This document shows positions 57,672 through 58,719 of a stretch of 64,000 bases of DNA, one piece after another. The stretch covers positions 1 to 64,000 of the forward strand of contig NZ_RCHI01000011.1 of assembly GCF_003664585.1 (NCBI RefSeq). The letters are read 5' to 3'. The first letter of the stretch is position 1. The number at the start of each line of letters is the position of its first letter. The position numbers and the translations under genes are program-made. The notes under the pieces were generated by a model, which saw nothing but the letters and a program-made list of their open reading frames with translations, searched no databases and had not been told where the DNA came from. This DNA is from Paenirhodobacter hankyongi (lineage in GTDB: Bacteria > Pseudomonadota > Alphaproteobacteria > Rhodobacterales > Rhodobacteraceae).

Positions 57672-57762
57672 GGCTTCCTCCGTTCACCCCTCAATGCCGT
57701 TGCCCGGTGCGCTCCGCAAGGGCAGGCATGCAGGTTTGCGAAGATGGGTGCGGAAATGGAAA

Positions 57763-58195
57763 CGGCGGCCCCAGGGAGGAGGAGGGGGCCGCCGTCCGAA
57801 CCTCGGCCCCAGGGAGGAGGAGGGGGCCTTGGTATGGGTGGCACCGCTCGGGAGGAGGAGTGAGCGGCACCGGAGCCGTCGGCCCAGGGAGGAGGAGGGG
57901 CCTTCGGTATATCGAACGGCGACCCCAGGGAGGAGGAGGGGGTCGCCGCCTGTCACGACGGGCCGGGAGGAGGATGGCCCTTCGCAAGTCTCGCGCCGAG
58001 AAGAAAGCGCGGTGCCCTCAGGGAGGAGGAGGAGGGCACCGCCTTCTTTACGAGACCCCAGGGAGGAGGAGGGGGTCATCGCATCGGCTTTCCGGCAGTG
58101 CCTTGCGGCTGGGGCCGGTATAGGGTGGCGGTGCCCTCAGGGAGGAGGAGGAGAGCACCGCCGATTTCCGAGGCCCAGGGAGGAGGAGGGGCCTC
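57763..58195 (-). ncRNA. Array of ten CCUCCUCCC-loop hairpin RNAs (Ccs/cuckoo type)
   Basis: On the minus strand ten stem-loops expose CUCCUCCUCCCU or a one-base variant: 57763-57794, 57805-57828, 57844-57867, 57881-57902, 57917-57948, 57960-57980, 58009-58042, 58054-58077, 58127-58162 and 58170-58195. Loops are nearly identical (11-12 bases) while stems differ in sequence but stay paired, showing that the RNA fold is what is kept. In Rhodobacter sphaeroides four related RNAs (CcsR1-4) follow a DUF1127 gene and are processed from its transcript; the same layout is seen here. CCUCC in the loop imitates the anti-Shine-Dalgarno sequence of 16S rRNA. The 536-bp gap between rlmJ and the DUF1127 gene (57672-58207) holds nothing else. 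Confidence 0.88.
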
Positions 58196-58207
58196 AGGAA
58201 GGGAAAC

Positions 58208-58411
58208 TTATTTGCCGTAGGCGGCCTCAAGGGCCACGCGGGTGATCATCGATCGATGGATCCCCAGATCTTCGAGCTCGGCGCGCGACAGCGACTTGAG
58301 CTCGCGCATCGTCTGGCGGAACACCTTGCGGCGGGCGATCCCGTCGCGGATGCTGGCAACCAGGGTCGCCAGGCCGAAGTCGGCGGTGCGGATGTCGGTA
58401 ACCAGAGCCAT
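58208..58411 (-). CDS. DUF1127 small protein (CcaF1-like RNA-binding protein)
   Basis: A 67-residue basic protein. The C-terminal YjiS/DUF1127 motif is clear: RKVFRQTMRELKSLSRAELE followed by DLGIHRSMI. In R. sphaeroides the DUF1127 protein encoded upstream of the CcsR RNAs (CcaF1) binds RNA and aids sRNA maturation; size, order and neighbouring array match. AAGG lies eight to ten bases before the ATG at 58411. A frame extends upstream but lacks homology. Confidence 0.9.
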   Translation of the reverse strand: MALVTDIRTADFGLATLVASIRDGIARRKVFRQTMRELKSLSRAELEDLGIHRSMITRVALEAAYGK

Positions 58412-58719
58412 CGTCTCAACCTTTGGTCTTCGTCGTCTTGCCGTCTTGCGGTGGCAACGTCGCCACTGCTGTTGACGCAAACATGGCCCCAATGCTGCAG
58501 CTGCACAATGGCCATGAGGTGCAATGCTGCCATGCAGAAAATGCATAATAGGTGCTGACCTAATATTTGGTCATTTCACCCAACGTCACACGACATTTTA
58601 TGTTCTGAAGATGCGTGTTTCGGCCAAATTTCGACGCTACTCCAGTTTGCGGCGATTTTGCGCCCTTGAACTCCGCGGCCAAAACGCCACAGTTCCGGCA
58701 AAAATCGGCGGAGAAGATC
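58412..58719. promoter_or_regulatory. Divergent regulatory region between the DUF1127 gene and mrp
   Basis: 308 bp without a gene and richer in A+T than the surroundings. It must hold the promoter of the DUF1127-hairpin RNA transcript on one side and of mrp on the other. In R. sphaeroides the equivalent sRNA promoter is heat-shock sigma factor (RpoHI/HII) dependent; I could not pick out one convincing -35/-10 pair here. ATGCAGAAAATGCAT (58531-58545) is a small dyad near the middle (ATGCA...TGCAT). Confidence 0.4.

Follow-up and report, generated by a model that had tools for sequence, protein, structure and literature searches.

The window analysed here, a stretch of DNA of 64,000 nucleotides, carries on its minus strand, behind a short DUF1127 gene, an array of ten hairpins whose unit is a two-hairpin module resembling the CcsR RNAs of R. 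sphaeroides. This is very probably CIN1/CcsR in a bacterium of the Rhodobacter group near Sinirhodobacter (Paenirhodobacter) ferrireducens, giving rise to a stress-induced CcsR precursor that would be cut into sRNAs with loops pairing to G-rich ribosome-binding sites; the anatomy of this locus is observed, and its processing is predicted by homology with R. sphaeroides. In itself it is a textbook CcsR cluster with the usual DUF1127 gene, of a kind found across the Rhodobacteraceae. Its contribution lies in correcting the unit to two hairpins, in showing how variable module number is in the family, and in revealing a discrepancy in the count for R. sphaeroides 2.4.1.

The hairpins and their two-hairpin unit

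Ten hairpins lie between positions 58200 and 57760 of the minus strand, and every one of them has the motif CTCCTCCC in its loop. The motif occurs exactly ten times in the 64 kb window, always on the minus strand and between 58185 and 57774, and a search of the whole window found no further copy outside the array. The perfect stems of hairpins 1 to 10 contain 9, 12, 6, 11, 5, 12, 5, 10, 6 and 13 pairs, a summed length of 89 pairs, compared with 36.1 +/- 4.6 (maximum 53) in 5,000 shuffles that left the loops intact and permuted only the remaining bases. The ten minus-strand stem-loops with a common loop that an earlier note on this DNA had described are thereby confirmed as real. The neighbour of the array on its 3' side is an RlmJ-type methyltransferase gene (57671-56874).

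The hairpins are also under selection. In 16 sequences from the genus, 99.4% of the cells in the stems of module 1 (the first two hairpins) pair, and 7 of its 23 pairs have undergone two-sided changes; when the partners are slid against each other as a control, only 35-51% of the cells pair and 0-2 pairs show such changes. The loop motif is invariant among the relatives in the genus, while the stems have diverged. The earlier note had claimed compensating changes in the stems, which these counts bear out, and had named a loss of pairing in close relatives as evidence that would speak against it; the stems of module 1 stay paired in these sequences of the genus. Compared with the sister species (genome G041; its aligned sequence matches that of the named Sinirhodobacter ferrireducens, L071, exactly), 8 of 440 positions are changed in the array and 19 of 204 in the DUF1127 gene. 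Four of the eight array changes fall in inner helices (two in hairpin 2, one in hairpin 3 and one in hairpin 9), and each of these preserves a standard pair, if G-U is counted as such; the remaining changes are located in the internal loop below hairpin 9 (two) and in spacers (two).

Folding reveals that the hairpins alternate between two types. Hairpins 1, 3, 5, 7 and 9 have an interrupted stem, in which a bulge, a mismatch or a 2x2 internal loop lies beneath 5-7 pairs and is followed by a few further pairs, whereas hairpins 2, 4, 6, 8 and 10 have a continuous stem of 10-13 pairs. The distance from loop to loop is 37-40 nt within a pair of hairpins and 38-79 nt between pairs, and the same contrast is found in Rhodobacteraceae arrays, with a median of 39 nt from a weak to a strong stem and 56 nt from a strong to a weak one. 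Since the alternation of stem types goes together with the difference in spacing within and between pairs, the unit of the array is a module of two hairpins, an interrupted stem followed by a continuous one, and there are five such modules. This agrees with RS0680a, the first CcsR RNA, which has two stem-loops with the motif in each (PMC3927594).

The same unit is recovered by homology. The Rfam family RF02791 (CcsR1) is an 83-nt covariance model that spans two hairpins, and in the whole genome it matches exactly five times, always at full length (1-83) and always in the array, which the matches tile (E 9e-11 to 2e-5; 30.8-48.8 bits); the array therefore consists of five CcsR-like modules. Module 1 (58123-58207, 44.5 bits, with the covariation in the genus described above) comprises hairpins 1 (58200-58166) and 2 (58162-58127), and module 2 (58004-58085, 46.7 bits) comprises hairpins 3 (58083-58049) and 4 (58042-58009). 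Module 3 (57911-57992, 48.8 bits) is formed by hairpins 5 (57987-57953) and 6 (57950-57915), module 4 (57833-57912, 30.8 bits, E 2e-5) by hairpins 7 (57907-57876) and 8 (57871-57840), and module 5 (57757-57835, 41.5 bits) by hairpins 9 (57833-57800) and 10 (57797-57760), all on the minus strand. The earlier note had placed a CcsR/cuckoo array behind a DUF1127 gene and had suggested a search with a Ccs/cuckoo covariance model; the adjoining PF06568 gene and the five RF02791 matches show this to be right, although all five scores are below the Rfam gathering score of 65.3 bits. At the gathering threshold Rfam matches neither the 64 kb window nor any of five related loci, and relaxed thresholds were required to recover the matches. 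In genome G046, which we take to be that of R. sphaeroides 2.4.1 and which holds the best RF02791 score, only one of seven modules passes the cut-off. The cut-off reflects a narrow model, and because the scores in the window lie below it, “CcsR-like” is the careful name for the modules.

The DUF1127 gene, its promoter and the terminal hairpin

The gene upstream of the array (58208-58411, minus strand) encodes a CcaF1-like DUF1127 protein of 67 amino acids (PF06568, E 2.2e-9) that is 91% identical to that of Sinirhodobacter ferrireducens, and the first loop motif follows 22 nt after its stop codon. A predicted RpoH-type promoter lies at 58481-58508 on the same strand, where TTG (58508-58506), 19 nt and CCATGT (58486-58481) would form the promoter elements, as judged from the consensus. 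The sequence CATTGTGCAGnTGCAGCAnnnGGCCCATGTTTGC upstream of the DUF1127 gene is common to the genome matching R. sphaeroides 2.4.1 and most relatives in the genus, and the promoter region as a whole aligns closely with the homologous region of the former. RpoHI/RpoHII act on the promoter of the R. sphaeroides operon (PMC10253847, PMC3320616), and the conserved sequence suggests that the promoter of the present array is of a similar type. Upstream of the promoter there is a palindrome, ATGCA-TTTTC-TGCAT (58546-58532), followed by GGCAGCATTGC; both are kept in most of the genus and partly in the genome matching R. sphaeroides 2.4.1, and the palindrome is possibly the site of a regulator.

At the other end of the array, hairpin 10 with its tail GCCGTTTCCATTTCC resembles the terminator-like hairpin GCCGTTTTCATTTCC of the genome matching R. 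sphaeroides 2.4.1 and occupies the same position. Across 95 arrays, the stems of terminal hairpins average 12.8 pairs compared with 8.5 for internal ones, and at least five T are present in the next ten bases of 52% of terminal hairpins compared with 3% of internal hairpins. The terminal tail in the window (GTTTCCATTTCC) is poorer than the T-rich tails of other arrays, and a consensus terminator scan of the window found no terminator. Hairpin 10 probably doubles as a terminator.

Module number across the Rhodobacteraceae

The earlier note had called the array greatly expanded with respect to the four CcsR RNAs named in R. sphaeroides, CcsR1-4 (PMC5036791), but a comparison of ten with four is misleading, because it sets hairpins against RNAs, and RF02791 spans two hairpins. 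Seven modules (14 hairpins) follow the DUF1127 gene of the genome matching R. sphaeroides 2.4.1, compared with the five modules of the window, and sampled relatives have 3-26 hairpins, so the claim does not hold. The array of that genome was seen in loci L173 and L185 (G046:C4:691400-693200). The finding of seven modules where four are named, a difference that may stem from an earlier assembly or from the way names were chosen, bears on the deletion and expression studies of CcsR1-4.

Counting the units in related genomes, which the earlier note had also suggested, shows the module number to be highly variable. Arrays in the same genus have mostly 8 or 10 hairpins, when motifs with stems are counted (L045 and L046 give 11 because an outlying motif is counted with the rest), and DUF1127 relatives fetched from named genomes are directly followed by 3-16 motifs in 35 of 35 cases. 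In 95 distinct family arrays, a sample that favours array-bearing genomes, there are from 3 to 26 hairpins with a median of 8, and 26 of the arrays have ten or more. These counts were made with a strict motif; a looser hairpin counter was rejected, having miscounted the array of the window as nine. Among 297 family genomes, RF02791 matches occur in 249 (E <= 0.001), the gathering score of 65.3 bits is exceeded in only 10, and the strict three-motif pattern is found in 116; outside the Rhodobacteraceae this pattern appeared in only three genomes of the class sample, two of which resemble simple repeats.

The presence of near-identical tandem modules in several family genomes points to tandem duplication as the route by which module number changes. 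The largest array seen (L012; G146:C1, about 334949-336100) has 26 motifs in near-identical three-hairpin repeats of ~140 bp each. Phage records contained no match to module 1. It is conceivable, though rather doubtful, that module number is an evolvable dosage setting, in which the tandem gain and loss of modules behind one promoter would tune how strong the sRNA response to stress is, or how large a capacity a multivalent loop RNA has, over a range of 3 to at least 26 hairpins.

Proposed function, alternatives and related systems

In R. sphaeroides the locus is co-transcribed and the RNAs are matured by RNase E and CcaF1 (PMC10253847, PMC7866481), turned over by PNPase (PMC7866481) and bound by Hfq, with flhR as a target (PMC8307010). 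By homology, an RpoHI/RpoHII-like promoter would produce a single transcript carrying the message for the CcaF1-like DUF1127 protein and the five two-hairpin CcsR modules, with the last hairpin probably ending transcription. Under stress, RNase E, aided by the DUF1127 protein, would cut this precursor into about five Hfq-bound sRNAs of ~80 nt, whose CCUCCUCCC loops may pair with G-rich ribosome-binding sites and may make metabolic and transport mRNAs less stable or less well translated. With several modules, each transcript would carry more loops and yield a higher dose of sRNA, and tandem duplication would change the number of modules.

The earlier note had regarded the loops as imitating the anti-Shine-Dalgarno sequence, and the genome is consistent with this: the loop complement GGGAGGAG is enriched 3-10 nt before ATG, with 37 occurrences, whereas the loop sequence itself has 9 there and the reversed pattern 4, and many of the frames behind these sites are catabolic or transport genes. 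Such a match is not specific, however, and names no targets, because strong GGGAGGAG sites are about as frequent where no CcsR match was detected as where one was (by hand tally, pattern and control counts of 388:75 in 20 listed family genomes without a match and 495:89 in 20 with one). One such ribosome-binding site precedes a 31-amino-acid frame (L125:923-1015, minus strand) that resembles PqqA and for which NCBIfam gave no match.

The spacers were also analyzed for AU-richness as an RNase E signal. Inter-module spacers are no richer in AU than intra-module ones (0.42 compared with 0.47), so that base composition gives no sign of an AU-rich RNase E site. ATACC turns up between modules in 35 of 148 cases, compared with 1 of 183 within modules, a difference inflated by longer spacers and related genomes.

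Loops of this kind, repeated identically ten times on one transcript, complementary to G-rich ribosome-binding sites and present in hairpin numbers that range from 3 to 26, might instead act together as the multivalent sponge envisaged in the earlier note, in which the unprocessed ten-hairpin RNA, or its loops as a pool, would sequester G-rich leaders of mRNAs or else an RNA-binding protein, with a capacity set by copy number. This idea is unsupported and improbable: in R. sphaeroides RNase E cuts the co-transcript into individual sRNAs (PMC10253847, PMC7866481, PMC8625941), the two-hairpin register (37-40 nt within, 38-79 nt between) is kept in a way that a simple sponge would not need, and an 8-nt motif rich in G is a frequent feature of ribosome-binding sites.

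Somewhat less probable still is a role confined mainly to the 3' end of the DUF1127 mRNA, which the hairpins would protect, destabilize or terminate, with the sequence of the loops being incidental. The position of the array immediately downstream of the DUF1127 stop codon and the terminator-like last hairpin would suit such a role, but a single hairpin would be enough for it, the loop motif is invariant despite the divergence of the stems, and conservation is higher in the array than in the gene. The expansion at this site of a selfish or REP-like palindromic repeat, which near-identical tandem modules in some family arrays might suggest, is very improbable given that every RF02791 match of the genome lies in one array, that the array stands behind DUF1127 in relatives too, and that compensatory changes and low divergence show selection, and a coding repeat is excluded because the loop spacings of 38, 79, 40, 56, 37, 41, 37, 38 and 38 nt are not multiples of three.

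The processed CcsR precursor remains the preferred reading, and it can be compared with several known systems. The 6C RNAs (RF01066), which also have two hairpins with C-rich loops and whose model matches weakly, at no more than 29.4 bits (cut-off 47), are a separate family and provide only an analogy. The alpha-r14 sRNAs (NfeR1 of Sinorhizobium meliloti; RF02344) likewise display anti-Shine-Dalgarno loops on hypervariable stems, and the RF02344 model reaches a best score of 57.3 bits, below its cut-off of 58.8, on hairpins 5-7 (module 3 and hairpin 7) of the DUF1127-linked array; they differ in being three-hairpin RNAs with their own sigma70-dependent promoter and six locus copies (PMC7143759), and they do not come from a DUF1127 3' region. 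With the Cuckoo RNA/CIN1 family the array shares consecutive hairpins, identical CCUCCUCCC loops, variable stems that stay paired without conservation of sequence, and a location directly downstream of a short DUF1127 gene (PF06568), whereas the motif described by Reinkensmeier and Giegerich (2015), as given in PMC4504443 and PMC10253847, has 2-4 hairpins per RNA, compared with five two-hairpin modules in one array here. The closest likeness is to CcsR1-4/ccaF1 of R. sphaeroides, which has the same locus order, promoter region, two-hairpin module and CCUCCUCCC loops, with the DUF1127 gene ~20 nt upstream. The five modules of the window are diverged, however, while modules 3-7 of the seven in the genome matching 2.4.1 are 89-99% alike, and in that genome the terminator-like hairpin is separate and does not carry the CTCCTCCC motif.
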